Part shown: piece by piece, positions 1-22,930 of the stretch
Layout: every line of letters begins with the position of its first letter
How positions within the stretch are numbered: position 1 is the first letter of the stretch
From: a virus
Virus record (IMG/VR): IMGVR_UViG_3300003690_000069
Location: 1 to 24,369 of that record
Length of the DNA: 24,369 nucleotides
Reading direction: 5' to 3' (one strand)
Notes under the pieces: model-generated
Told to the model about the DNA's origin: nothing
What the model saw: the letters and a program-made list of their open reading frames with translations, nothing else
Database searches by the model: none
Translations under genes and position numbers: made by a program

Positions 1-3000
1 ACAAGATAGGTAAGCTGGATGACGTTCTCCACCTTGCCAGTACATCAAAGGGTGCCCAGGCTCTTGGCCTTTCCAAAACAATGGGGCCACGACAGGCGGG
101 CATGAACCTGACATTGAAGAAGGTCTTGGCGGCTGAGGCCAAGGGCGGGTTGGACGACATACTTGGTCTGCCGGGGCTTAGGCATTCCAAGGGGTTGGCG
201 GGGGAATTTGCTGATGCCGGTGTGGATATAGCAAAGATAATGGATCAGCCGCTTACCAGTAGTGTGCATGTCGGCTTGCCTAACTTCCTGGCTAACGTGG
301 GCTTCGGGAAGTTGCGCCCACTCAAGTGGCTGAGAACTCGCCCCTTGAATATCAAGCCGGGCGGAAGGGTGGAAGGCTGGGCAGGGCTTATGGACAAGGT
401 GGGTTCATCGGTCAGGTGGAGTCGTCCGGGCCGGGAACTGGCGAGGCTGTTCAATCCCATGATGCGCAGGACGCAGGCGGGTACTCGCGTTCCCGTGACC
501 AAGGCGGCGCAGCAGGCGAGGCTCAGAGAGTACCGCTTCATGGAAAGGACGACACAACAGATCCACCGGGCGCAATATGAATTTGGGCAAAAGTGGGTGG
601 ACATGCCTCACTTCAATAAGCAGAAGATGGTGCAAGACACCGGCATTTACAGGAATATCAACAAGCTGGACGACGCTGAGAAGATGGTTCGCAAGAACTT
701 TGACGAGATGACCGCCCACATGGAAGGCTACCAGTTGATGCCAGATGGCAGCATGAAGCTCCCAGACTGGAATCCCAGGGTGGTAGCCAAACTTGAAAAG
801 AGTTATAGAGCCTCGCTGATTGCGCAGGATAAGGCTCTTAAAGGCTTGGTGAGCAGGAAGCTCACAGCAGAGACAGCATTAAGAAATGCTGGCAGGGCGG
901 CTGGTGGGTTTGGAGATCCCAAAGCGATGGCGTTGGCGCAGCGCCAGATAGATGGTCTTACCAAGCGGATAAGCAGGCTCAAGCGGGTGCGCAATTCAGA
1001 TGCGCAACTGTTGAGTGACGTGATGAAGGGGGGCAAGACGCCGGATCAGAGGGCTATCGGAAGGGCGGTTCAGGGTACAAAACAGGCTCACTTCCGGCAC
1101 AGTGGTCTTCAAATACAAGGCGCGGAACAGTTGAAGTATCAGTCGGGGTGGAAGTACCGCAACAAAGGGGGCTTGTCTCCTCACTTGAAGAGCATCGAGG
1201 GTGATCTGGACATTATTGCCCAGAAGTATCGGGACGCCTTTGAGTACGCCCAGAAAAGGGGCGTTGATATAACCCAACTGAAAGACAACTATGCACTCTT
1301 TACGCCGCGCATGTTGTACAGGGTTCCAGAGGCGACACCCAGGGGGGTGCAGAGTGCGGCTGCAATGGGGCGCAGCTATGCCAATTACGGTACGAAGTAC
1401 CAGATGGCGCGTGCCGCTACGATGAAGGGCTGGTTTGGTGGCACGGCTTTCATCAACCGCCTGAGCCGCAAGAAGAATTTTGCGGGAGCGATTAAGGCGG
1501 GGATGACATCCAAGGACACTAAGGACATCGTTGATGGTCTTGCCAAGCAGATTCTTAATGGTGAAATACGGGAGATGATTAGGGTTGGTGGCGACGATGC
1601 AATCCGTTCTTACCAGGCGTTGGGTATCCTCGATGATGCGGGTAATTTTGTTAAGAACGCCCACTTGAACCCCCATGTTCAGGAGTTGGCTACGTTCCTG
1701 GCGAAACTTGACGGGCGTATTACAGGTCTTGGTGCATCGGCCTTTGAGATAAACCCGGCTATTGCGATGTCGGGGTATTATGTGGACATTGTGCGGGCCG
1801 CGCACGCCACGGAGATTGCCACGTCGCTGATCGGGGAACATGCCAAGTTCGGGGTAAAGTTTGCTGCGATGGGGCTTAAAGGGGGCGATCAAACTGTTGA
1901 TGGCATGCTGAATGGGTGGGGCAGGACAAACAGGGGTGCCCAGCCGATACTTAAAATTCGGACTATGCGGGAACTGAGGCAACTCAATGACAACTGGGAT
2001 GAGATATATGACTTTATCGGCAGCAATAAAGACCTCAGCTTTTTGAAACAACATATAGACGATATAGTTGACCGGCCTCTTGATGATGTTATTGACAGGT
2101 GGGCCAAGGTGAACAGTGCAAACCAGCCTGTTAAGGAGGCAAAAACTCTTTCGGAGCAAATGTCCAAGGTGTTGGATGAGCTAAGGTTGCCCAGTGACCT
2201 GGCGGCAGATGCGACAAGGTATGTGAAAGCGTTTACTGACCCCAGTTCAATGAGCGAGTGGGTTCTGGCGTTTGACCGCATGACGGACTTGCTCAAGAGT
2301 TCTTTCACGACCCCGTGGCCAGCGTTTCACTTCCGAAACTTCCTGTCAGGCCAGGTAAACAACTACTTCATAGGTGCCTACGACCCCACCCACATGGGGC
2401 CGTGGAAGTACATGCGGCCTGTGTGGGATGCGAGGACACTCCTACGGGGTGGGACGATCAAGAGGATAGCCGACCAGATCCCCATGTTCAAAGGCGGAAG
2501 GAACATTCCAGATTGGGCCAAGGCTGACCCGGACAAGTATGTATCTGACTGGATAAGGACGCAGGCCCGTGCCGGTGGTTTGGTTGCCCCGTCGCAGGCA
2601 AGAGAACAACTGCTTGCTCTTGGAGAAGCGGCGGGATACGACCCACTGGGAACCCGATTCATGGGTGAGGTGCCGGGAGCAACCAGGCTTGGGGCTAAGG
2701 TGCGCGGCATCCTTGGGGATAAGAAACTGCACTGGGGCAAGAAATATATGGCTAGTGCCAGGGCAGTGGGGTATGAGGTTGAAGGGTACAACCGCCTGGC
2801 CCCGCTGATTGCTTTCTTGAAGCAGGGGTTCTCTCTTGATGAGGCCATCAAGAAGGTCAAGCTGGCGCAGGTAGACTATACCATGCTGTCAGACTTCGAG
2901 AAGAACGTCATGCGGCGTATCATCCCGTTCTACACTTTCACCCGGCGGCAGATACCGTTTGTCATAGAGCAGCTTGCCAACCCGTCCAGTGCCATGTCAC

Positions 3001-3788
3001 AGGCTGTGAAAGGTATCTCCCGTGTGCAGGGGCAGATGGCAGACCCAGAGAATCCTATACCTGACTGGATCTCGGCAGATTTTGCCATCCCCCTTCCTGG
3101 CGGGGCGGAAGGCCAGCAGCGATACCTCACCAGGGCCGGGGGTATGCTGGGTGGTATGGAAGATGTGTTCTCTCTACTCAAGCCTGGCAGGACAGCGATG
3201 GGGGCGGTTCGCAGGACACTCTCCGGTATTGGTAGTCGTATGCACCCAGGCTTGCAGGCTCCTGTAGAGCTTGCCACGGGCCAGTCCCTGTTCCTGCAAA
3301 GGCCGCTGAGTGAAACCAAGCCTGCTACGGCCCGCCTGATAGGTGGTATAACGGGAGCGGAACAGGTGCCTTCGTTCCCCGGCCCCCTTACCGAGTCCGT
3401 CATAAGCAGGCTGCCGTTCTTTGGACGCAGTGTATCCACGCTCCGCTCACTCACTGATCCTCGCAGACCCCTCACGGTAGATGGGCAGGTGTCAGCCCTG
3501 AACCTGGCTGCACGCATGATGCCATCACTAATGGGCGTGCGGATCTCGGAAGTGAACATGGAGAGGATCAAGAACCGCATCATGCAGGAGGCCATCGAGG
3601 AACATCTCAAGCACAATACATCCATCAGGACGTTCAAGCATATCTATGTGCCGGAAGCGGAGCTTGCGAACATGGACGAGCAGAGCCGTGCCCTGTACCT
3701 GCTGTACAAGCAGATTTCCAGCCAGGCTGCGAAGGCTTCACGGGCAAGGAAGAAGGAGCAAAGCCAGGCGGCTGCGTACTCTATGTGA
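1..3788 (+). CDS. Large phage virion-type protein, 5' end outside window
   Basis: The reading frame is open from the left edge (codons start at base 3), with no stop before the first ATG at 81, so the gene almost certainly begins upstream; at least 1,260 residues are visible. The product is basic and largely helical, with no signal peptide. Two stretches resemble very large proteins I associate with environmental phage structural regions: a TPWPAFHFRN segment near residue 760 (counted from the ATG at 81) and a PFYTFTRRQIPF segment near 955. The C-terminus is rich in Lys, Arg, Ala and Gln. I infer a virion-associated or internal (possibly ejected) protein, not an enzyme, since no catalytic motif was recognised. 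It is the only plus-strand gene and it overlaps the convergent minus-strand gene by 8 bases. Coding status is certain; the role is moderate to weak. Confidence 0.8.
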   Translation, partial: KIGKLDDVLHLASTSKGAQALGLSKTMGPRQAGMNLTLKKVLAAEAKGGLDDILGLPGLRHSKGLAGEFADAGVDIAKIMDQPLTSSVHVGLPNFLANVGFGKLRPLKWLRTRPLNIKPGGRVEGWAGLMDKVGSSVRWSRPGRELARLFNPMMRRTQAGTRVPVTKAAQQARLREYRFMERTTQQIHRAQYEFGQKWVDMPHFNKQKMVQDTGIYRNINKLDDAEKMVRKNFDEMTAHMEGYQLMPDGSMKLPDWNPRVVAKLEKSYRASLIAQDKALKGLVSRKLTAETALRNAGRAAGGFGDPKAMALAQRQIDGLTKRISRLKRVRNSDAQLLSDVMKGGKTPDQRAIGRAVQGTKQAHFRHSGLQIQGAEQLKYQSGWKYRNKGGLSPHLKSIEGDLDIIAQKYRDAFEYAQKRGVDITQLKDNYALFTPRMLYRVPEATPRGVQSAAAMGRSYANYGTKYQMARAATMKGWFGGTAFINRLSRKKNFAGAIKAGMTSKDTKDIVDGLAKQILNGEIREMIRVGGDDAIRSYQALGILDDAGNFVKNAHLNPHVQELATFLAKLDGRITGLGASAFEINPAIAMSGYYVDIVRAAHATEIATSLIGEHAKFGVKFAAMGLKGGDQTVDGMLNGWGRTNRGAQPILKIRTMRELRQLNDNWDEIYDFIGSNKDLSFLKQHIDDIVDRPLDDVIDRWAKVNSANQPVKEAKTLSEQMSKVLDELRLPSDLAADATRYVKAFTDPSSMSEWVLAFDRMTDLLKSSFTTPWPAFHFRNFLSGQVNNYFIGAYDPTHMGPWKYMRPVWDARTLLRGGTIKRIADQIPMFKGGRNIPDWAKADPDKYVSDWIRTQARAGGLVAPSQAREQLLALGEAAGYDPLGTRFMGEVPGATRLGAKVRGILGDKKLHWGKKYMASARAVGYEVEGYNRLAPLIAFLKQGFSLDEAIKKVKLAQVDYTMLSDFEKNVMRRIIPFYTFTRRQIPFVIEQLANPSSAMSQAVKGISRVQGQMADPENPIPDWISADFAIPLPGGAEGQQRYLTRAGGMLGGMEDVFSLLKPGRTAMGAVRRTLSGIGSRMHPGLQAPVELATGQSLFLQRPLSETKPATARLIGGITGAEQVPSFPGPLTESVISRLPFFGRSVSTLRSLTDPRRPLTVDGQVSALNLAARMMPSLMGVRISEVNMERIKNRIMQEAIEEHLKHNTSIRTFKHIYVPEAELANMDEQSRALYLLYKQISSQAAKASRARKKEQSQAAAYSM

Positions 3789-4014
3789 TCCCATTGTTGG
3801 CTTTGATGCTACCGTCGCCCAGTTGCTGCACCGCAATTGTCAGGGATGATCCCTTCTCATAGGCATACAGAGCATAGTTAGTAGTGGAGGCCGGGGTAGC
3901 AGCACTGGAGATTGTGTACCCCTTGCTTACGGTAACACTGCCATCTGTAAGCTGGGACACGACATGCTCATCGTAGTTCACATCAAAGCGGTGGATGCCA
4001 ATGATGTCAGCCAT
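3781..4014 (-). CDS. Small hypothetical protein, probably virion-associated
   Basis: A 77-residue protein beginning MADIIGIHRFDV, predicted mostly beta from its alternating hydrophobic and Ser/Thr-rich sequence. I recognise no family. Its start overlaps the stop of the upstream gene as TAATG, so the two are probably translationally coupled. It is the last gene of a minus-strand trio of Ser/Thr/Ala-rich beta proteins and runs 8 bases into the end of the convergent large virion-type gene. Membership of that trio suggests a minor decoration or tail-associated role; this is inference from context. Confidence 0.7.
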   Translation of the reverse strand: MADIIGIHRFDVNYDEHVVSQLTDGSVTVSKGYTISSAATPASTTNYALYAYEKGSSLTIAVQQLGDGSIKANNGIT

Positions 4015-4643
4015 TAGAACAGTTCATTCAGCATGAGTGTCTGTGGTATTCCGCCCGCCTTGGGTGGAGATGTGTAGGTTACGACCAGCTTGACGGCATC
4101 AGCCCCGGCGCTATCGTGCGTCTTGATCTTCATTTCCCTGTCTTCCATCATGCTCGCGTCAGTAGGGTTAAGCAAATGGATGGTCATGTTCTGGCCGGAC
4201 GACCAGCCAGAGCGATCAATAACCTCCTGTATGACGGCAGCAAAGTCTGACGAGTCAAGGAAGGCGCTGGAGGTTGATGTGGCCAGAGTCCAAGTGGTCT
4301 TGGCCGAGGTCGCTGCTGCCTGGGAGGTAGTCAGTGCGCTGTCGTTGGCAATGGCCCCGGCGCTGTCTGCATCCTCAGCATGGATGTCACAGGTCTTGCT
4401 GCTCGTTGTGTAGTTTTCGTGCAGCTTATACTGGAGCTTGGCGGTGAGAACAGTAGAGCCTTTAGGGATAGTCACTGTCAGGAAACGGAAATAGCAGGTT
4501 GTATCGGTTGATCCGGGGCCAGGGTTCACAGCCCCGATGCTGGCATAGGCGGCGCTGTTACTAAAGGTGAAGCCCCCCACGCCATCACTGACCCGGTAGC
4601 CATCATCAGCGTTGGCTTCTACTTGTACCGTGAGGCTTGCCAT
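4014..4643 (-). CDS. Beta-sandwich protein, likely surface or decoration protein
   Basis: A 209-residue protein rich in Ser, Thr and Ala. A stretch near residue 53 (FRFLTVTIPKGSTVLTAKLQ) followed by a late VIQEVIDRSGW segment near residue 138 has the layout of DNRLRE-type or carbohydrate-binding beta-sandwich domains: an early pair of strands, and a late 'xxIQxxxDxxGW' helix. There is no signal peptide. It is coupled by TAATG overlaps on both sides. In a phage this arrangement fits a capsid decoration, tail or receptor-contact protein, but the fold is assigned by pattern only and could be another beta-rich virion fold. Confidence 0.75.
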   Translation of the reverse strand: MASLTVQVEANADDGYRVSDGVGGFTFSNSAAYASIGAVNPGPGSTDTTCYFRFLTVTIPKGSTVLTAKLQYKLHENYTTSSKTCDIHAEDADSAGAIANDSALTTSQAAATSAKTTWTLATSTSSAFLDSSDFAAVIQEVIDRSGWSSGQNMTIHLLNPTDASMMEDREMKIKTHDSAGADAVKLVVTYTSPPKAGGIPQTLMLNELF

Positions 4644-5152
4644 TAGCCTATCTCGTAGTGGCCGATGATGGTAACAACGGCCTGGGTGCCTGCATCAACG
4701 TAGTCCACAGCGATGATGTCGTTCAGATCCAGCACGACCCCTGCATTTATAAGTACCGGGGTAGCATTGTCAGCGGGAATGCTGCCAGACCAGAGGGTGT
4801 TGCCGCGAGCATTGTTGACTTCATCCGCCGTGGCGGTCGCAGCAGCCGCATTGGAGCTAGACCTATTCAGGTTAATCCCCGTAACGGAAGTTCCGCTATG
4901 GGTCAGGGATGCCTCGTCAGTCGCGTGGACGATTACGGTTGTCGTGGTGTCCGAGTGACACCATACCTGGTCAATGTGCAGGTTGTGTGTGGTGGAAGTG
5001 TTCTCAACAAGCAGGATTGTGTCGTTCCCATCATAGTCATAGGCCACACTCGCCCATGAAAAGGCCAACCCATCTACCACGGAGGAGTGGAGCAGGTGGT
5101 TTTTCTGTGTCGTATACTCCGGTTGTTTTCCCGAACGTCCAGTGATGCCCAT
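4643..5152 (-). CDS. Hypothetical beta-rich phage structural protein
   Basis: A 169-residue protein starting MGITGRSGKQPEY, with repeated short beta strands (TILLVENTST, TTTVIVHATDE, ATPVLINAGVVLDLNDIIAVDYV) and a hydrophobic C-terminus. The pattern of ligand-free beta strands followed by a 'G..LDLNDIIAVD' turn resembles small phage virion proteins of unknown role. A good Shine-Dalgarno (AGGAGAAGACA before the ATG) supports the start. Its stop overlaps the next gene's ATG as TAATG. No enzyme motif is visible. A structural role is inferred from the neighbours. Confidence 0.75.
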   Translation of the reverse strand: MGITGRSGKQPEYTTQKNHLLHSSVVDGLAFSWASVAYDYDGNDTILLVENTSTTHNLHIDQVWCHSDTTTTVIVHATDEASLTHSGTSVTGINLNRSSSNAAAATATADEVNNARGNTLWSGSIPADNATPVLINAGVVLDLNDIIAVDYVDAGTQAVVTIIGHYEIG

Positions 5153-5212
5153 TGTCTTCTCCTGGTTATTTGTTTCACGTATTGTAGTTGGTTGCGGGGG
5201 GAAAGGCCATGT

Positions 5213-5413
5213 TTACTTGTTTGGCCAGAAGGCGTGCCCTGCCAGCAGCCCGAACAGGAAGGCTACAATGGGATGCTTCTGGCTTGTGGTAAACAGTGCA
5301 TAACTCACGGTGGCTTCATAGTGCCCGCTGGAATTGGCAATGACATCCCATACAAAGACAACGACAATAAATGCCCAGATTATAATTTTAGGGACTATCT
5401 CCCAGTTCGTCAT
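5213..5413 (-). CDS. Small membrane protein, holin-like topology
   Basis: A 66-residue protein with two hydrophobic segments: residues about 8-26 (IIIWAFIVVVFVWDVIA) and about 49-61 (IVAFLFGLLAGHAFW). The ends are short and charged. Size and topology would suit a small phage holin or other inner-membrane protein, but holins have no universal motif and no endolysin is visible nearby. The gene starts within the end of the RusA-like gene (26-base overlap), suggesting coupled translation. About 60 bases without a gene separate it from the beta-rich trio. Confidence 0.65.
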   Translation of the reverse strand: MTNWEIVPKIIIWAFIVVVFVWDVIANSSGHYEATVSYALFTTSQKHPIVAFLFGLLAGHAFWPNK

Positions 5414-5783
5414 CCCAGCCGCTCTCCAACTCAGTGATTGCTATGGAAAGATAACCTGGCTTTGCCAGTGGTCTGCGTATTACCCGCAGGTCATCTATCT
5501 GTTCATCATCTTCAAACACCCCGGCATATTCCAGGGAATCAAAGATTGCCTTGAGTATATTATCCAGATCCCGCCGCCTCCTGTCAGGAACAAATGCGTA
5601 GATTTCCACCTTTAGCCTCTCTGCATGGTGTCGGACACCCTCTGCTATGACGTATTCACAGATTTCGTTGCGGTAATCTCGACCCTTGGCGCTGATAATC
5701 ACACGGCCAGAGGAAAGGTTACGCCAGTAAGTGTTTACACTTGGCGGGTACGGAAAGTTTAGCAGAACAGTTTTCGAGTCCAT
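5388..5783 (-). CDS. rusA: RusA-like Holliday junction resolvase
   Basis: A 131-residue protein, close to the usual RusA length of about 120. It shows the family layout: an N-terminal FPYPPSVNTYWR strand-turn (residues 10-21), then the acidic core DRRRRDLDNILKAIFDSL (about 67-84) and DDEQIDDL (about 92-99). In RusA the aspartates of the 'DxDN' block and the later 'DD.QI' block bind Mg2+ and cut four-way junctions, and those positions are present here. It likely resolves recombination or replication intermediates before packaging. The Shine-Dalgarno GGAGAAGTGGACGA lies directly before the ATG, inside the end of the HNH gene. Identification is confident. Confidence 0.93.
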   Translation of the reverse strand: MDSKTVLLNFPYPPSVNTYWRNLSSGRVIISAKGRDYRNEICEYVIAEGVRHHAERLKVEIYAFVPDRRRRDLDNILKAIFDSLEYAGVFEDDEQIDDLRVIRRPLAKPGYLSIAITELESGWDDELGDSP

Positions 5784-6181
5784 TCGTCCACTTCTCCTTG
5801 GGTAACGCGATGCGGAGCCTTGAGTTCCGGGTCACGAAGCCGGAGCCACGCATCTAGGTCATAGTTGTCAGGGTCGTGTTTCTGTTTATAGGCAAGCTGT
5901 TGTGCATGCGGCATGGTGGCAAGGTCGTCCATGTGACATTTCTTGCATGTCCTGAAATAGTTTACCGGACTCGCCCACCGGCCAGGGGCTTGCGACTTTC
6001 GCTCAATCTCATGTGTCTCCAGGGGGAACCCTCTGTACACCTTCTTGCTGCACATCCAGCAGGTGGGGTGTTCAAGTGCCCAGTTACGTCTGCGTGTGTT
6101 CAAGGGTGTCCATCGGTTTAAGTTTGGTGTGGGGATATCGGTAGCACGCCCGCCCGGCGAAGGCTTTATAGAGCGACCCAT
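5759..6181 (-). CDS. HNH endonuclease
   Basis: A zinc-type HNH core is clear: CWMC, then ETHEIERKSQAPGRWASPVNY, then CKKCHMD. These are two CxxC zinc pairs, the catalytic His in HEI, a central Asn and the final His. It probably nicks or cuts DNA; whether it acts in packaging, recombination or homing cannot be told. The start is uncertain: I chose the ATG at 6181 (140 residues), but a TTG at 6103, or an ATG at 6253 that overlaps the upstream gene by 170 bases, are possible. None has a strong Shine-Dalgarno. The gene end overlaps the RusA start, placing it in the nuclease cluster. Confidence 0.8.
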   Translation of the reverse strand: MGRSIKPSPGGRATDIPTPNLNRWTPLNTRRRNWALEHPTCWMCSKKVYRGFPLETHEIERKSQAPGRWASPVNYFRTCKKCHMDDLATMPHAQQLAYKQKHDPDNYDLDAWLRLRDPELKAPHRVTQGEVDEWTRKLFC

Positions 6182-6578
6182 CTTCCCAGTATTCTTTCCG
6201 CTTGGCATCCTTGCCCAGCACCCAGCCGACAAGTTCCATTGTGGGGAAGTCATGGGATTTTACCAGTACGAATACCTGGTCGTCCTCATCCCTTGGGTGG
6301 AGCAGCAGGTTGCCATGCTTGTAGCTGGTACTGCGCACCTGGATGTTGGTACCCACATCTGCCACTATCTTGTCATAGTCCCTGGCAAAGTCAGTCCAGC
6401 CCTGTGAGAGGGCGAGGGCCACAGCAAGCTCTGCCCGTGCCCCGTCGACATGGATGGCTGTCCCATCCCCCTTGAAGCCGTAGGCATCCGCCTTGCCGAT
6501 GCTGTTGTTATACGCCTGCCGCTTGACTCCCGCATCATCGGCGTACTCCCGCTGTGTCTTAGTCAGTGTTATCCTCAC
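6084..6578 (-). CDS. Conserved phage protein, possible PD-(D/E)XK fold
   Basis: A 164-residue protein starting at a GTG with a good GGAGG upstream. Visible blocks are GARAELAVALAL (residues about 46-57), DVGTNIQVRST (about 73-83), HPRDEDDQVFVLV (about 92-104) and a Gly-Lys-Asp segment (WVLGKDAKRKEYW). The order Glu-containing helix, Asp before a strand, then Q-x-R/K on a strand is what a reduced PD-(D/E)XK nuclease core looks like, but the usual ExK is replaced by QVR, so activity is doubtful. It overlaps the small upstream gene by 20 bases and the HNH gene downstream. I recall similar uncharacterised proteins in phages; the function is unknown. Confidence 0.72.
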   Translation of the reverse strand: MRITLTKTQREYADDAGVKRQAYNNSIGKADAYGFKGDGTAIHVDGARAELAVALALSQGWTDFARDYDKIVADVGTNIQVRSTSYKHGNLLLHPRDEDDQVFVLVKSHDFPTMELVGWVLGKDAKRKEYWEDGSLYKAFAGRACYRYPHTKLKPMDTLEHTQT

Positions 6579-6732
6579 TGCTTTCCTCCATGAGTTCGCG
6601 TTCGTATTCCTCTACGAATCGTTGTGCCTGGGCACCTGACATAATCATCAGGGGTGACTCCTCAGAGTCTTTCCCGAAGAACAGCCACCACACCATCCCG
6701 GCCTCGTCCGTTACCTTCTTGGCTAATATCAT
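6559..6732 (-). CDS. Small hypothetical protein (57 aa) coupled to the helicase
   Basis: A short gene filling the gap below the helicase: ATG at 6732, stop TAA at 6559-6561. The start overlaps the helicase stop as ATGA, and a GGAGAAGCG Shine-Dalgarno sits in the helicase's last codons. The product begins MILAKKVTDEAGMVWWLFFG and is acidic at its C-terminus (EEYERELMEESSEDNTD). No family is recognised. The tight overlaps on both sides and the good ribosome-binding site make it a likely real gene despite its size. Confidence 0.7.
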   Translation of the reverse strand: MILAKKVTDEAGMVWWLFFGKDSEESPLMIMSGAQAQRFVEEYERELMEESSEDNTD

Positions 6733-8330
6733 CGCTTCTCCAGTTCATTAGAGATGGACTTCCATAACCATGTTGCCTTGATTTGTGGCTTGCCTTCTAT
6801 ACATCCTCTCAAGTACCACGTCGGCGTGTCTCGAACAAGCTCCCCGCGAAACCTGCCGAAGGGGAACCTCGCGCCCCGTTTACTCTTTGTCCGTACTACC
6901 CCTTCCGGGCTGTCACCGAAGGGGTCAATGGACTGTGTTCTGTACTCTGCCCTGGCTGCTACACGGGCACGCTCCTCCCGTGCTGCTTGTTCCTGTTCAA
7001 GCTGGAGTTGCTTCTGTGCTGCCTTGAGTGCTTCGTCGATCTCGATAACTTCATCGGACTCGACAAGGTTTTCCTTGGCTCTTTCGACAGCCTCGATTCC
7101 CCAGGTGCCACCCATCACATCCGGGGATGTCATAATCTTATGGGCGAGTGTCACGTCTACAAGGTCAATCATCTTGAAACGTGGCTTGCTGCTGGCTGCT
7201 ATGGCTTCACAGCGTGTGTCTGCGGTGGAACTAGCGAAGTCCACGGTGCCCTCCAGTGGGCGTGTGCCACGTCCGAATATCTGTGTGTAGAGCATCTTGG
7301 ATCTCGTTGGCCGGGCCATGATAATACATTGCAGGCCGGGAAAGTCCCAGCCGGTTGTCAGGATACCCACGTTACACAGGTGCGTCACTCCATCAGGGTC
7401 TTTCGTGAAGGACTCCAGGGCGTCGTGCCTTTGCTGTGGGGTACATCTACTTGTATCGGCACATATCCACGCCGACTTGATCCCATAGCTATCTGAGAGC
7501 CTCTCTGATACCATCTGTGCCTCTGCCACACTTGCGCAGTAGATGGCTGTCTTGAGTCCCCTTGTCTCCCGTGCGGCTATCTCAGCGATCTCATAGATAG
7601 TTTCGTACTTCTCTAGCTGCTGGCTCAGGTCTATCTGGTTGAAGTCCCGGCCCATCGTGGTGGAGGACATGGTAACTTCCGAGAGGTTGAGGGACTGGAG
7701 GCGTATGCACCGTGCCTCTGCATTGACCAGCCAGCCATCACGTATGCCATCCACGATACCGTACTGGTAGACACAACCCTCGTAGAGGTTGGCCATGCTC
7801 TTGCGGTCGTGTCTCTTGGCTGTGGCGGTGACACCCAGTACCTTGGCTCCCTGTGCCATGAAGTGGTCAAGGAGGTTCGCCCAACTCTGTGTGATGGACA
7901 GGTGTGCTTCATCCACAACGACCAGGCCCACATCCTTTATCCTCCTGTACCTACCCCGCACAAGGGTATCCTTGCTGGCCACAACGAAGGGGCTTCGACT
8001 CCATGTGGTTTCATCTGACCAGTTGTGTGCCTGCTCGATGCCGGGATGCACGCCAGTACGCTGTGCAATCTTCTGTGCTGCTTGGGCGACGAGGGTAATC
8101 ATCGGTGCTATCACAAGGCATCTGCCTCTTTCCCAGCGACTCATTAGCTGGGTAAAGATTTCTGTTTTGCCCAGGCCCGTCGCCATTTCCACAATGACAG
8201 CATCCATATCACCGAAGGCTGACTCCACAGCAATGCGAGCGTTGCGTTGGTACGGTCTTTCGACAAAGCCAGAGGCATCAGGTGCGCTCGGCTCATCAGC
8301 AGTAAACCCTCTCAGGTATGTCTGGCTCAT
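6729..8330 (-). CDS. SF2 DEAH-type DNA helicase
   Basis: A 533-residue superfamily 2 helicase. Motifs in order: Q-like PYQRNA, motif I MATGLGKT, Ia IAPMITLV, II DEAH, III TAT, IV/V TAIYCASV and ILTTGWDFPGL, VI QIFGRGTRP. Together these form both RecA-like lobes, as in UvsW/RadD-type phage helicases that remodel branched DNA. After the second lobe there is a charged linker and a C-terminal block of about 45 residues (FPFGRFRGELVRD...WYLRG) resembling the DUF3820/exonuclease X C-terminal domain. The Shine-Dalgarno GGGGGATGA before the ATG supports the start. It is coupled by ATGA overlaps to genes on both sides. It is likely part of the recombination and replication set. Confidence 0.93.
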   Translation of the reverse strand: MSQTYLRGFTADEPSAPDASGFVERPYQRNARIAVESAFGDMDAVIVEMATGLGKTEIFTQLMSRWERGRCLVIAPMITLVAQAAQKIAQRTGVHPGIEQAHNWSDETTWSRSPFVVASKDTLVRGRYRRIKDVGLVVVDEAHLSITQSWANLLDHFMAQGAKVLGVTATAKRHDRKSMANLYEGCVYQYGIVDGIRDGWLVNAEARCIRLQSLNLSEVTMSSTTMGRDFNQIDLSQQLEKYETIYEIAEIAARETRGLKTAIYCASVAEAQMVSERLSDSYGIKSAWICADTSRCTPQQRHDALESFTKDPDGVTHLCNVGILTTGWDFPGLQCIIMARPTRSKMLYTQIFGRGTRPLEGTVDFASSTADTRCEAIAASSKPRFKMIDLVDVTLAHKIMTSPDVMGGTWGIEAVERAKENLVESDEVIEIDEALKAAQKQLQLEQEQAAREERARVAARAEYRTQSIDPFGDSPEGVVRTKSKRGARFPFGRFRGELVRDTPTWYLRGCIEGKPQIKATWLWKSISNELEKR

Positions 8331-8521
8331 TCATCCCCCCGTCGTTTCTTCCACGCCGAGTTGACGGCTGCATAGACATCCTCTGGTGAGGCGGAGAGTA
8401 GAGCATCAAAGTAATATGTGACCACATCAAGGGGATGAAACTTGCGGACGACTATTTCCCATGAGTCTTTTATGGCATACCGCCCTAGAGGGTGTTCGAC
8501 CGCACGGGTCGTTGCCAGCAC
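8327..8521 (-). CDS. Small hypothetical protein upstream of helicase
   Basis: A 64-residue protein with a GTG start at 8521. It ends GRYAIK...KKRRGDE and its TGA overlaps the helicase ATG (ATGA). The composition is mixed, with a mostly helical C-terminal half (PEDVYAAVNSAWKKRRG). I recognise no family. The start lies 6 bases after the stop of the preceding 54-residue gene and the Shine-Dalgarno is weak, so translation probably depends on readthrough coupling from upstream. Confidence 0.6.
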   Translation of the reverse strand: MLATTRAVEHPLGRYAIKDSWEIVVRKFHPLDVVTYYFDALLSASPEDVYAAVNSAWKKRRGDE

Positions 8522-8527
8522 CGCCGG

Positions 8528-8692
8528 TCAGCCAAATCCAGTGTGAGGATGAACAAATTCTTCGTCAGCAAGTTTCCCGCAAAGGACTGGACTGTTCCGA
8601 TCTGCGTGCCACTTGAGGCGATTGAGTTGGGTATCAGTTAGCTTGCCGAACGCACTAGCCAATGTACGCCTGCGGTTCTTTTGTGTAGGCAT
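8528..8692 (-). CDS. Small basic hypothetical protein (54 aa)
   Basis: ATG at 8692, TGA at 8528-8530. The start shares one base with the stop of the upstream gene (TAATG). The product begins with a basic MPTQKNRRRTLASAFG stretch, then KLTDTQLNRLKWHADR, and ends FVHPHTGFG. The basic N-terminus could contact nucleic acid, but no family is recognised. It exactly fills the gap between two other coupled genes, which is the main argument that it is real. Confidence 0.6.
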   Translation of the reverse strand: MPTQKNRRRTLASAFGKLTDTQLNRLKWHADRNSPVLCGKLADEEFVHPHTGFG

Positions 8693-8907
8693 TACTCGTT
8701 CTCCTCTCCAGTTACAGGGGGGGCGTGTTTCATTAGGCGTGCGTAAGACTCGCTGAAACGCTTGTCGAACTCCTGTTCCACTAGCGGCTGGGTAATCTCC
8801 CCGATCTCATTGAGGGCTTTCCATAAGACTTTCTTTAACCTTCTCCTCTCTGGGAGCTTGTGAAGCCGCTCGATAATAGACATGATTTCACATAGCTTTT
8901 CAAACAT
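8692..8907 (-). CDS. Small helical hypothetical protein
   Basis: A 71-residue, strongly helical and charged protein (MFEKLCEIMSIIERLHKLPE...) with a possible short coiled coil at residues 5-40. No family is recognised. A near-ideal Shine-Dalgarno (GGAGGGCGACG then ATG) fixes the start. The gene overlaps the end of the Lar-like gene by 8 bases and its stop overlaps the next start as TAATG, so it is part of the same translational chain. Confidence 0.7.
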   Translation of the reverse strand: MFEKLCEIMSIIERLHKLPERRRLKKVLWKALNEIGEITQPLVEQEFDKRFSESYARLMKHAPPVTGEENE

Positions 8908-9088
8908 CGTCGCCCTCCTGGGTTACAGGTTCTCTACGATTCCACTGCCGGATAGCAGCGGTAACGACACTGCCGGGCATGAACGCCCCGCACTTCTCGC
9001 ATGTTACGGTGGCCAGGAAGTATCCATGCACACCCTCATCCACCTTCGCCCCTCCTCCACAGAAGGGGCACGGTTTAACTTCGTCCAC
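8900..9088 (-). CDS. Lar-like zinc-ribbon protein (restriction alleviation family)
   Basis: A 62-residue protein with the Lar family layout: VKPCPFCGGGAKV (first CxxC, residues 7-10), TCEKCGAFMP (second CxxC), then an AIRQWNRR C-terminal motif. Family members in Rac prophage and phages are linked to relief of type I restriction, though most homologues are untested. The start is a GTG with TAGGAG six bases upstream. The location among early recombination genes is typical for Lar-like proteins. The family call is good; the anti-restriction role is inherited from the family name only. Confidence 0.85.
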   Translation of the reverse strand: MDEVKPCPFCGGGAKVDEGVHGYFLATVTCEKCGAFMPGSVVTAAIRQWNRREPVTQEGDDV

Positions 9089-18987: not shown

Positions 18988-19584
18988 TTACTTTTCTCCT
19001 TCTGCATAGTAAGCTGCCAGTCGGCTGGCCGTTTGCTTGTACTGCTCGCCCCTGTTAGCACCATCGCATGGCATGATTACACCGATGCCAAGGTCGCCAG
19101 CTACCGCAATCGCGTCATCGGGCTGGCCTATTCTCAGTGTCACTCGCTTGGGATTATCTACCCCATTGATAGCAAGGGCTAGGTTGTAGAGTAGTTCAGC
19201 ATCCAGTGTTACTTCCACGCCATCCCACTCCGGTAGGATACTATCCACCTTGGGATAGTGTGACTCGACGGGGCGGGGATGGATCGCATTAGCCTGGGAG
19301 TTTGTCCACCCGTACTCATCCTTATGCACCCTGCGCCCCTTACCCTTGCGGGTAGGCAGAGCCTTGACCGGGACTTCCAGCATGGATGCCCCATCCTTTG
19401 GCTCGCCAGCGGTCACATCAACCGGCACAACAGCAAGTACTTGGCCATTACTAGCAACCAGCGTACCAACACCAGAGTGTTCGTTGTTAATCAACAACCT
19501 GGGGTTGCCCATTCCATACCGAGAAGTCTTGCCCTTGTCACAAGCCTTTTCGATCTTCGTATCCACGTTAAAGCTATACTCCAT
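18988..19584 (-). CDS. Sliding-clamp-like protein
   Basis: A 198-residue protein starting MEYSFNVDTKIEKACDKGKT, with the AGGGAGAGCGACATGG leader. The second half has a clamp-like run: SHYPKVDSILPEW, VEVTLDAELLYNLALAING, KRVTLRI, DDAIAVAGDLGIGVIMPC. This is the order of 'FP....VIP', 'L....L..L..A', '..V.L.F', '.P......G....VMPM' seen in DNA polymerase III beta domains and short phage homologues. At about 200 residues it could hold only part of a clamp, so it may form higher oligomers or have lost the clamp role. No polymerase lies in this window. The call is by pattern only. Confidence 0.55.
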   Translation of the reverse strand: MEYSFNVDTKIEKACDKGKTSRYGMGNPRLLINNEHSGVGTLVASNGQVLAVVPVDVTAGEPKDGASMLEVPVKALPTRKGKGRRVHKDEYGWTNSQANAIHPRPVESHYPKVDSILPEWDGVEVTLDAELLYNLALAINGVDNPKRVTLRIGQPDDAIAVAGDLGIGVIMPCDGANRGEQYKQTASRLAAYYAEGEK

Positions 19585-20837: not shown

Positions 20838-21056
20838 CTAGTCCTCCAGTTTCCAAGTACACACACGATATACAGTTAGCCATAGTTCACCGATAACGTA
20901 GCCAGCGTGCTTTGATGTTCCATCTACCGTATCAACATACATTTTCCTTGCATGTTGATTGCAAAGATGTTCCATCAACCACTTGCGCGGTGGGTTATCA
21001 CCTATCTGGTAGGTGCTTCCGTATTGATCTACTGCTAAGTATCCAATCTTATCCAT
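20838..21056 (-). CDS. Conserved hypothetical protein
   Basis: A 72-residue protein starting MDKIGYLAVDQYGSTYQIGD and continuing NPPRKWLMEHLCNQHARKMY, VDTVDGTSKHAGYVIG, ending TWKLED. The 'YLA.D.YG..Y.I....PRKWL.......A.KMYVD' pattern recalls uncharacterised phage proteins. GGAGGACTAGTAGCATGG sets the start. It is the first gene after the non-coding 21.1-22.1 kb block, so it may share that block's transcript. Confidence 0.7.
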   Translation of the reverse strand: MDKIGYLAVDQYGSTYQIGDNPPRKWLMEHLCNQHARKMYVDTVDGTSKHAGYVIGELWLTVYRVCTWKLED

Positions 21057-21190
21057 GCTACTAGTCCTCCAGGTTATCTCACCCCACTACCTAGCAGGCG
21101 GGTATCTGCATCACGTACCTCCATACTGGGCTACGTCCAGTACCGCTTTGGACTTTCATCGGCTATAGGAGGTGTCTGCTGCTGTGCGTG

Positions 21191-21289
21191 CGATGCGCGT
21201 GGGAGTCGAACCCACACCTGTAATCAACCCCACCTGTACTGGGCAAGGTTGTCGGTAAGGCCGGGCCTTGCAAAGCCCTCTTACGCACC
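21191..21289 (-). other. tRNA-like T-arm and acceptor module
   Basis: On the minus strand GTGGG-TTCGACT-CCCAC is a perfect T-arm with a consensus T-loop, followed by GCGCATC and one G. GGTGCGT at 21289-21283 can pair with all seven of GCGCATC (two G-T pairs), giving a 99-base cloverleaf-like element with two other arms, including GGGC/GCCC. No proper D-arm or anticodon arm can be drawn, so I do not call it a tRNA. GATGCGT at 21378 or 21475 could pair with the same 3' strand instead, closing a larger RNA. Confidence 0.4.
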
Positions 21290-21353
21290 TCATGTGTCTC
21301 TGGCGAGGGCTGGCCTCCCGATAGGATTGTGCAACAGAGCATTCGCTATCGGG

Positions 21354-21388
21354 CGGCTGCTTCACCTCACCACGCATCTTCTGCCCTT
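21354..21388 (-). repeat. RNA-domain direct repeat, copy 1
   Basis: A 35-base segment matching 21451-21485 97 bases later; 24 bases (CCTCACCACGCATCTTCTGC plus CCTT on the plus strand) are identical, and CGGCTGCT is shared before them. In this copy the segment follows the CCCGATAG/CTATCGGG hairpin, and CCTCACC can pair with GGCGAGG near 21303. Confidence 0.8.
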
Positions 21389-21450
21389 GTATCGCCGGTG
21401 AGGCCACCACCAGGCTGGCCTTCAGGGAACAGGGAGCTACCCTGCCCTGA

Positions 21451-21485
21451 CGGCTGCTACGCCTCACCACGCATCTTCTGCCCTT
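21451..21485 (-). repeat. RNA-domain direct repeat, copy 2
   Basis: Second copy of the segment at 21354-21388. Here it follows a different stem (TCAGGG/CCCTGA at about 21422-21450), and its CCTCACC pairs perfectly with GGTGAGG at about 21397. Both copies share GGCTGGCC on the other side of the stem, so the whole domain, not just this segment, is duplicated. Confidence 0.8.
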
Positions 21486-21605
21486 CGCCACGTTCGGAGG
21501 AGTTACAGACTGGGGCTTTAATCAGGGCGAATACCCGCCGGTAATTCGTTGCCTCCCGGCACCCTGGGTTAGATCCTCACGAACCTACCACCTTAATCCA
21601 GATAA

Positions 21606-21626
21606 CTCCTTCCAGCACGTAGCTGG
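21606..21626 (-). repeat. Hairpin repeat, copy 1 (CCAGC-ACGTA-GCTGG)
   Basis: A 21-base element, CTCCTTCCAG then CACGTAGCTGG, with a 5-bp stem and ACGTA loop. It recurs at 21714-21734 with one change, C to T in the stem, which keeps pairing as T-G. On the minus strand the stem is followed by AAGGAG. Confidence 0.75.
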
Positions 21627-21713
21627 TAGACCAGCGCGATTTGCTGGCTGCCGAGACAGATTTCTAACCGATTGGTTAGTCACGTATCTGTCTGACTCGC
21701 TCTAACAACGTAC

Positions 21714-21734
21714 CTCCTTCCAGTACGTAGCTGG
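21714..21734 (-). repeat. Hairpin repeat, copy 2 (CCAGT-ACGTA-GCTGG)
   Basis: Second copy of the element at 21606-21626, 108 bases away, with one substitution in the stem that remains paired as a wobble. The two copies flank the long AGACAGAT hairpin, suggesting a repeated unit in the structured RNA. Confidence 0.75.
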
Positions 21735-21802
21735 CGACTCCCATACGATACAACGTGATATCGTTGTATTGGTACAGGCAACAACTACCCACAACGGGTA
21801 GA

Positions 21803-21851
21803 CGCAACAACCACAACACAAACAAGTATTGTTTGTGTTGTTGTTGTTGCG
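21803..21851. repeat. 23-position near-perfect inverted repeat
   Basis: Arms at 21803-21825 and 21829-21851 pair at 22 of 23 positions (one C-T mismatch) around a three-base GTA loop. The arms are built of CAACAA/TTGTTG triplets and are poor in GC for a terminator; no T-run follows on either strand. It is the longest hairpin in the window and marks the likely 5' boundary of the minus-strand RNA. Confidence 0.85.
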
Positions 21852-21870
21852 CGTTGTGTACTTATAAACA

Positions 21871-22080
21871 CCGCTATCTGTCGGTAGCTTGGCGATTATC
21901 TTTGAGAATGGCAGAAATAACGATAAGTAACGTAGCCGACTAGGGCGGTCGATATTTTAGCCGCTGGAAGGGGGTCTGTAGGCTATCGGATTGATAATGG
22001 GTAGTACAATGGGGGTCTGGTTGTCGTCCGTTAGAATGGCAACAGAGGATAATTGCACCTGGGAGTAGGTTAGGCGCATA
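21871..22080. other. Non-coding spacer, promoter not identified
   Basis: About 210 bases between the hairpin array and the terminator of the upstream gene. I see no gene and no convincing promoter; TTTATAAGT near 21862-21870 (minus strand) is a weak -10-like sequence with no matching -35. A promoter for the downstream structured RNA should lie here if that RNA is independently transcribed, since the upstream transcript appears to end at about 22080. Confidence 0.5.
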
Positions 22081-22115
22081 AGAAAACCCCCCGGCTAGAT
22101 AGTCTAGCCGGGGGG
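22081..22115 (-). terminator. Rho-independent terminator
   Basis: On the minus strand CCCCCCGGCTAGA pairs perfectly with TCTAGCCGGGGGG (13 bp) around a three-base loop, and TTTTCTTAT follows directly. It lies 20 bases after the stop of the 22136-22930 gene. On the plus strand the hairpin is not followed by T's, so it acts mainly on minus-strand transcripts and separates that operon from the structured RNA locus. Confidence 0.92.
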
Positions 22116-22135
22116 TGGTGGTGTGCTGTGGTGTG

Positions 22136-22930
22136 CTACGCTGGCAATCGTTCATGATGCTGCATGGTATCGATATCAACGTACACCGAACCATCCTCAT
22201 TCAATGGTACGTCACACTCTTTGACGGGAGTTAGAATCCAGCCAGCCTCCGCTTTAACTACCCTAGCGGTTGTCACCGTTGCTTCCTGCGTGAAGAACAT
22301 CGCCTGTTCACGCTCATGCTCTGCAAGAGTAGCACAACCAATCTCTGGTTGACTATCAACAATAAACGATTGCGATAACTTCGCCACAGGCATCCCGTCG
22401 AAGTCTGCGCGATAGGTATCTAGGTGCTTGGAATACTTGTCGCGTGACCGCTTGCCATGGTCTTTCAACGTGCTATCCGCCAACGGTTTGCTGTTGGGGT
22501 TAGGTGTGGAAGATACTTTCCTCCATACGTTACGCCGGAATCCACAGAACCTGGAGAACGTCCAGAGTCCCTGTGTAGCTGGCGATATATCCTCTCCATT
22601 CTTATCGGTGACAATCAAAAATCCTGCGTCACTCAATAACCATTGGCTAAAATCGCCAATCGAATCCTTCGACATTAACTCGGCCTGTTTGAATGTGACC
22701 GGGGAGAATCGTGCATTCTTGTCACGGGTAATTGTCGGTTCGCTAGCTGCGCCGACGAACGTAACAACCCTTCTTCCCTTCTTGAGTTTTCCAGGGTGGT
22801 TGCGCTTGTCGTAGATTCTCCAAGCAGAAATAGACTCGCACTTGGCAATCCCGTGTTCTCGATCTAGTTCAACCAGTACGTTGAACTTGTGATCGTACGT
22901 AGGCTTCTCCAACTTTCGGTACGGTTCCAT
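22136..22930 (-). CDS. Hypothetical protein (264 aa)
   Basis: A 264-residue protein starting MEPYRKLEKPTYDHKFNVLV after AAGGACTTAGTAAC. It has beta-rich ends (HKFNVLVELDREHGIAKCES; AGWILTPVKECDVPLNEDGSVYVDID) and a basic middle (GFRRNVWRKVSS, LKDHGKRSRDKYSKH). A segment SKDSIGDFSQWLLSDAGFLIVTDKNGEDI may be a small alpha/beta unit. I recognise no family or catalytic motif. The basic centre would allow nucleic-acid binding. It ends the 22.1-24.2 kb operon, with a strong terminator 20 bases after its stop, and follows a structured two-hairpin leader. Confidence 0.72.
   Translation of the reverse strand: MEPYRKLEKPTYDHKFNVLVELDREHGIAKCESISAWRIYDKRNHPGKLKKGRRVVTFVGAASEPTITRDKNARFSPVTFKQAELMSKDSIGDFSQWLLSDAGFLIVTDKNGEDISPATQGLWTFSRFCGFRRNVWRKVSSTPNPNSKPLADSTLKDHGKRSRDKYSKHLDTYRADFDGMPVAKLSQSFIVDSQPEIGCATLAEHEREQAMFFTQEATVTTARVVKAEAGWILTPVKECDVPLNEDGSVYVDIDTMQHHERLPA

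Follow-up and report, generated by a model that had tools for sequence, protein, structure and literature searches.

A candidate duplicated RNA module in the leader of a leftward phage operon

Gene setting and layout of the leader

In the window (an entire virus contig of 24,369 bases, IMG/VR virus record IMGVR_UViG_3300003690_000069), every credible gene between about 24.3 kb and 4 kb lies on the minus strand. Two similar units lie between an upstream gene, for whose product PHROGs and Pfam gave no family match, and a long leftward operon that combines DNA metabolism genes with many small ORFs (Table 1). Because a terminator closes the upstream gene and the next ORF series starts only at 21056, we place the units within a leader, which by annotation runs from that terminator to the first small ORF (roughly 700-1000 nt) and the 5' end of which probably lies between about 22085 and 21780; a sigma-70 scan of 20900-22200 found no promoter.

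Table 1. Features in and around the leader of the window (positions are those of the whole contig)
Feature	Position	Strand	Description
Upstream gene	22136..22930	-	264 aa; related genes precede the L155 and L008 leaders
Intrinsic terminator of the upstream gene	22086..22116	-	14-bp stem followed by a T-rich tail; strong; upstream limit of the leader
Inverted repeat I1	21803..21851	-	near-perfect 23-bp hairpin in an AAC/GTT-rich stretch; 96% complementary; near the probable 5' part of the leader
Motif TACGTRNTGGAWNNAG, copy 1	21714..21729	-	16 nt
Motif TACGTRNTGGAWNNAG, copy 2	21606..21621	-	16 nt
Unit 1	21392..21475	-	upstream copy in the transcript; GAUGCGU-[GGUGAGG..CCUCACC]; inner stem UCAGGG/CCCUGA; 10 extra nt in the internal loop
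Unit 2	21297..21378	-	downstream copy; outer stem GGUGAGG/CCUCGCC; internal loop UGAAGCAGCCG / AGGCCAGC; inner stem CCCGAUAG/CUAUCGGG; 21-nt loop
tRNA-like stretch	21192..21289	-	T-arm with loop UUCGACU (21217-21197); acceptor-like GGUGC (21289-21285) with GCAUC (21196-21192); two further arms in the minimum-energy fold
GCAGATACCCGCCTGCT..GTGGG	21083..21109	-	just before the first ORF; kept in 3/3 leaders (L008 1997; L155 2006)
First small ORF of the leftward operon	20838..21056	-	72 aa; 83% amino acid identity to L155:4203-4409

Protein searches of IMG/VR led to L008 (13 kb; 80% amino acid identity for the gene at 18988-19584) and, via the helicase, to 16 loci, one of which comes from the 54.5-kb contig G002 (bases 1-9000, referred to hereafter as L155). 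When a 900-nt leader region was compared with 17 related records (E up to 1), eight gave any match, six of these being single 20-nt matches; stronger matches were confined to the record of L008 (E 3.4e-32) and to G002 (7.8e-5), and the leader comparison covers three contigs (the window, L008 and L155). The leaders of L008 and L155 occupy the matching place, between a relative of the upstream gene and a small-ORF series, and the three vary in both length and module content, that of L155 spanning about 300 nt. An AAC and then GTT stretch similar to that of the I1 hairpin is also found early in the L155 leader (about 1745-1822).

Two further observations concern the contigs at large. Read in gene direction, GC skew switches at the leader (about 21-22 kb in the window) from about 0 on its upstream side to between +0.14 and +0.27 on its downstream side, where the higher values extend for 5 kb or more in all three contigs, despite same-strand genes on both sides, which makes an origin possible. 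A resolvase-like domain (PF00239, 31.3 bits, with no visible DNA-binding part) is encoded at 13032-12649 (-) of the window; the same domain occurs in all five related records, over the cut-off in three.

The two units and their stems

Each unit has the architecture of one bulged hairpin of about 70 nt. The first-pass annotation had described two adjacent units with shared constants, an identical 24-base segment and inner stems that differ in sequence while remaining paired, and every named piece is present. The constant GGCTGGCC recurs at 21308-21315 and 21413-21420, and the direct repeat CGGCTGCT..CTGCCCTT at 21354-21388 and 21451-21485 (35 nt, 94% identity, the last 24 nt identical). In plus-strand letters, the inner stem of unit 2 pairs CCCGATAG (21317-21324) with CTATCGGG (21346-21353) over 8 bp and that of unit 1 pairs TCAGGG (21422-21427) with CCCTGA (21445-21450) over 6 bp, both stems being set in from the constants by exactly 1 base. 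When the sequence enclosed by the constants was shuffled, an inner stem equal to the real one, with identical 1-nt offsets, came back only rarely (71 of 200,000 shuffles for unit 1 and 5 of 200,000 for unit 2). The outer stem pairs in both copies, as had also been claimed: GGCGAGG (21302-21308) with CCTCACC (21365-21371) in unit 2, and GGTGAGG (21397-21403) with CCTCACC (21462-21468) in unit 1. An internal loop of constant sequence, the remaining structural claim, survives as far as the shared sequence goes, but the loop is not constant throughout, its 3' side in unit 1 carrying 10 extra nt (CUGGUGGUGG).

The working strand of the module is most likely the minus strand, since the credible genes around it are all on that strand and since the sole outer-stem change between the units reads there as U-A to U-G (read on the plus strand, it gives A-C). 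Folding energy by itself does not settle the strand: the 185-nt region spanning the units surpasses dinucleotide shuffles on either strand (z -3.83 plus and -2.54 minus, with none of 200 shuffles equalling it in either case), and the z-score favours plus-strand folding both for this region and for each unit of the window. A 580-nt stretch of the minus strand folds far better than its shuffles (z -4.95, 0 of 100). A coding role for the units was rejected, as a 111-aa ORF that runs over them hits a stop in the unit of L008, and the differences fall at codon positions 3, 1, 3, 3, 2 and 2.

To assess pairing across copies, a covariance model was built from unit 2 and the single unit of L008 (L008:1766-1858, 90% identical to unit 2 over 93 nt), leaving unit 1 out, and was run on 19 sources (189,105 bases, matches listed at E up to 10). 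Unit 1 is recovered with 38.0 bits (E 2.8e-7); the other four of the five matches are the model's own two sources and two weaker opposite-strand matches at the same places, the latter being expected from near-palindromes. In the resulting three-row alignment (few rows, and fitted to the model), 98.3% of 60 cells are paired, a level reached by 2 of 500 shuffles, and 5 of 20 pairs have changed on both sides; a shift of the partners by 1-3 columns cuts pairing to 33-47%. This covariation is carried by only three units and is in effect one stem-replacement event, the stems of unit 2 and L008 being identical. All six differences between unit 2 and L008 lie at unpaired positions, which make up 42 of the 82 (p 0.015). 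Taken together, the recovery of unit 1, the pairs changed on both sides and the restriction of unit 2/L008 differences to unpaired positions support the reading as an RNA module that the first-pass annotation had put forward, and such a module in the leader is probably under selection.

The reach of the module beyond these copies appears narrow. The covariance search that had been suggested for phage genomes succeeded, in the form used here, in finding unit 1, but matched none of eight further related records at E up to 1 (a search run without a positive control). L155, which belongs to the same phage group, gave no significant match to the model, and a hairpin with GGCCAGCC near its matching place is not established as a homologue, being no better than 71-282 of 1000 shuffles (according to the unit compared) and below covariance-model significance. 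With a single unit in L008 and no significant match in L155, the tandem, perhaps dimer-like arrangement proposed earlier is not supported as a requirement. A wider phage family found no support either: Rfam at gathering thresholds gave no match in the window or four related sources, and a DNA search returned none in 50,697 phage records. Sequence patterns told a similar story. A loose constant-loop pattern matched at least 119 stretches and, among the matches listed, only that of the L008/L092 contig (one contig) retains stem and context; a stricter one had this same contig as its single viral match. Its 36 genome matches (7 with at least 4 stem pairs) often come from Streptomyces or other actinobacteria and were taken as chance, and the exact 17-mer GGGCAGAAGATGCGTGG occurred in viral contigs six times, each in an unrelated context as judged by eye.

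Companion elements of the leader

The 16-nt motif TACGTRNTGGAWNNAG is present in exactly two copies in each of the three leaders, on the transcript strand only, and lies upstream of the units in the window. Its copies start at 1741 and 1758 in L008 and at 1968 and 1985 in L155, a spacing of 17 nt in both, versus 108 nt in the window; outside the leaders it was found neither elsewhere in these three sequences nor in 1,452,785 bases of other loci. The sequence GATRCGTGGTG at the start of the units (two copies in the window, one in L008, one in L155) resembles this motif. Immediately before the first ORF, the GCAGATACCCGCCTGCT..GTGGG element is a possible H-type pseudoknot, predicted from pairing by eye (GCAG/CUGC and CCCGC/GUGGG); a search with GCAGATACCCGCCTGCT gave six matches, two in related contigs and four in unrelated contexts.

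Downstream of the units, the tRNA-like stretch has a counterpart at about 1877-1984 of L008, with a T-arm of GUGGG-UUCGACU-CCCAC in the window and GUCGG-UUCGAGU-CCGAC in L008, followed by GCGC in both. A tRNA-like structure calls for a T-loop on top of a stack of about 12 bp and for a cloverleaf. Folded locally, the stretch takes a cloverleaf as its minimum-energy form in both contigs, a shape also reached by 48 and 79 of 1000 sequences with a shuffled 5' part; in a larger context the acceptor pairing has a probability of 0.18 for the window and 0.0 for L008, where the T-stem itself reaches only about 0.5. ARAGORN reported no tRNA or tmRNA in the window and seven loci, the Rfam tRNA model RF00005 had no match in the window's own record, no tRNA was found in L008, and the tRNA-Sec model scored 20.1 bits in 1401 bases against a cut-off of 47. 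We regard the stretch as a probable T-loop element that is only possibly a tRNA mimic. Two proposed pairings were rejected: complementarity between GAUGCGU of the unit and the tRNA-like 3' strand GCGCAUC, read by eye in the window, is absent from L008 (GAUACGU versus GCGCUCC), and the palindromic UACGUA hairpins that would allow a kissing-loop dimer are, as judged by eye, not kept in L008.

Interpretation and competing readings

On balance, and with modest confidence drawn from sequence comparison, we favour the explanation that each unit is a copy of an RNA module that works in cis within a phage operon leader. The leader would be transcribed leftward and remain untranslated, and the bulged helix, through its conserved faces AGCAGCCG and AGGCCAGC, may serve as a docking site for a factor, candidates being RNA polymerase or a phage or host RNA-binding protein. 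Once docked, this factor would set how far the operon mRNA is made or how long it is made or kept, with the downstream T-loop element offering a putative RNase P-type processing or docking site. One copy would suffice in L008, while two might raise affinity or represent a recent expansion. We give the finer mechanism (factor docking, an RNase P-type site) only a low probability, and an equally low one to the bolder proposal that the duplicated bulged-helix module, the tRNA-like element and the twin 16-nt motif form one operon-controlling device, a new class of leader RNA working by antitermination or RNase P-type processing. Antitermination would need terminators within the operon, and the 19 found there on both strands are no clear excess over shuffles (13.0, sd 3.4), a count that argues against it.

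A DNA-level element in place of an RNA, the units forming part of an array of hairpins and iteron-like TACGTRNTGGAWNNAG repeats at a replication origin or operator, we consider unlikely but, in its replication-origin form, a serious competitor. The motif's twofold presence in every leader, its tandem arrangement in L008 and L155 and its restriction to leaders among the sequences examined would suit such an array, as would the skew jump between genes of one strand; a strong transcription start can also give such a jump, however, the spacing in the window departs from the tandem one, the proteins examined include no recognised initiator, and stem replacement with kept pairing and a U-G wobble suits RNA better than DNA. 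The same replacement, with the constants unchanged and the unit 2/L008 differences confined to loops, points to selection and so makes it distinctly unlikely that the units are without a role, products of a leader that merely expands and contracts by slippage and recombination, even though its length and module content do vary among the three contigs and L008 itself carries tandem 17-mers.

Very unlikely, in our estimate, is a free-standing large non-coding RNA of the GOLLD or ROOL kind, released from the transcript at its tRNA-like end. The strong minus-strand folding of the 580-nt stretch, the modular build with a tRNA-like 3' part and the phage source all fit it, and GOLLD and ROOL, RNAs that phages and prophages carry close to tRNA islands (PMC12286853, in the part available), are likewise large and modular, with tRNAs near or in a linker (same source, same part). 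However, tRNA genes are lacking here, the leader RNA lies within an mRNA and shrinks in L155, no minus-strand terminator-like hairpin stands between the units and the first ORF, and sequence and structure do not match: the GOLLD and ROOL models gave nothing at gathering thresholds and are not among the 18 Rfam matches at E up to 10 in 1401 bases. Hardly credible is a phage attachment site, with the tRNA-like arm as a tRNA 3' end and the repeats as recombinase sites. The T-arm stems of the window and L008 differ as if taken from different host tRNAs and a resolvase-like domain is widespread in the related records, but the tyrosine integrase PF00589 is found in none of five records (all possibly fragments), and the resolvase-like ORF, no more than about 150 aa long, is 8 kb distant.

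Returning to the cis-acting leader module, two known phage systems offer precedents for it, in our analysis, and not a family to which it would belong. HK022 put is a cis-acting antiterminator RNA of phage early leaders, occurring as two similar elements, putL and putR (PMC9378689, available portion); according to that portion it shares with the present units a position near the start of a long operon and the presence of two similar elements per phage (PMC4496710, in the part available, holds nothing on put). A put site, however, is about 70 nt of two stem-loops, an arrangement that the units, each one long bulged hairpin, do not have; putL and putR are on two transcripts, whereas both copies here stand in tandem on one leader, and put itself exerts its antitermination via the zinc-binding domain of the RNA polymerase beta' subunit. 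The C4 antisense RNA precursor of P1/P7 and M3 RNA are phage RNAs cut by RNase P and resemble the present leader in joining a phage RNA to tRNA-like features (PMC11143913, available portion); C4 antisense RNA, which excerpts of PMC2864571 give as Rfam family RF01695, is not among the 18 matches at E up to 10. A literature search found, within its limits, no paper describing the RNA of these units, which looks like an orphan structured leader RNA of no known family and not a new kind of machine; its single copy in a related phage speaks for a regulatory RNA that is real but orphan.

The catalogue of structured leader RNAs from uncultivated phages is, in our own view, probably incomplete. Here pairing survives the complete replacement of a stem, the modules stand in a set order and close relatives have fewer of them, which makes the parts separately testable; if transcription or processing is controlled, the leader would add an RNA-based switch from phages that lack close relatives in the searched phage collection. 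We also observe a recurrent gene junction, GGAGGAMTAGYAGCATG, at 21070, 20847 and 20474 (-) of the window, between 2326 and 3711 of L008 and at 2553 and 4189 of L155 (3, 7 and 2 copies, respectively), where an ..ED-stop ends several small proteins and the same bases form the ribosome site of the next gene.
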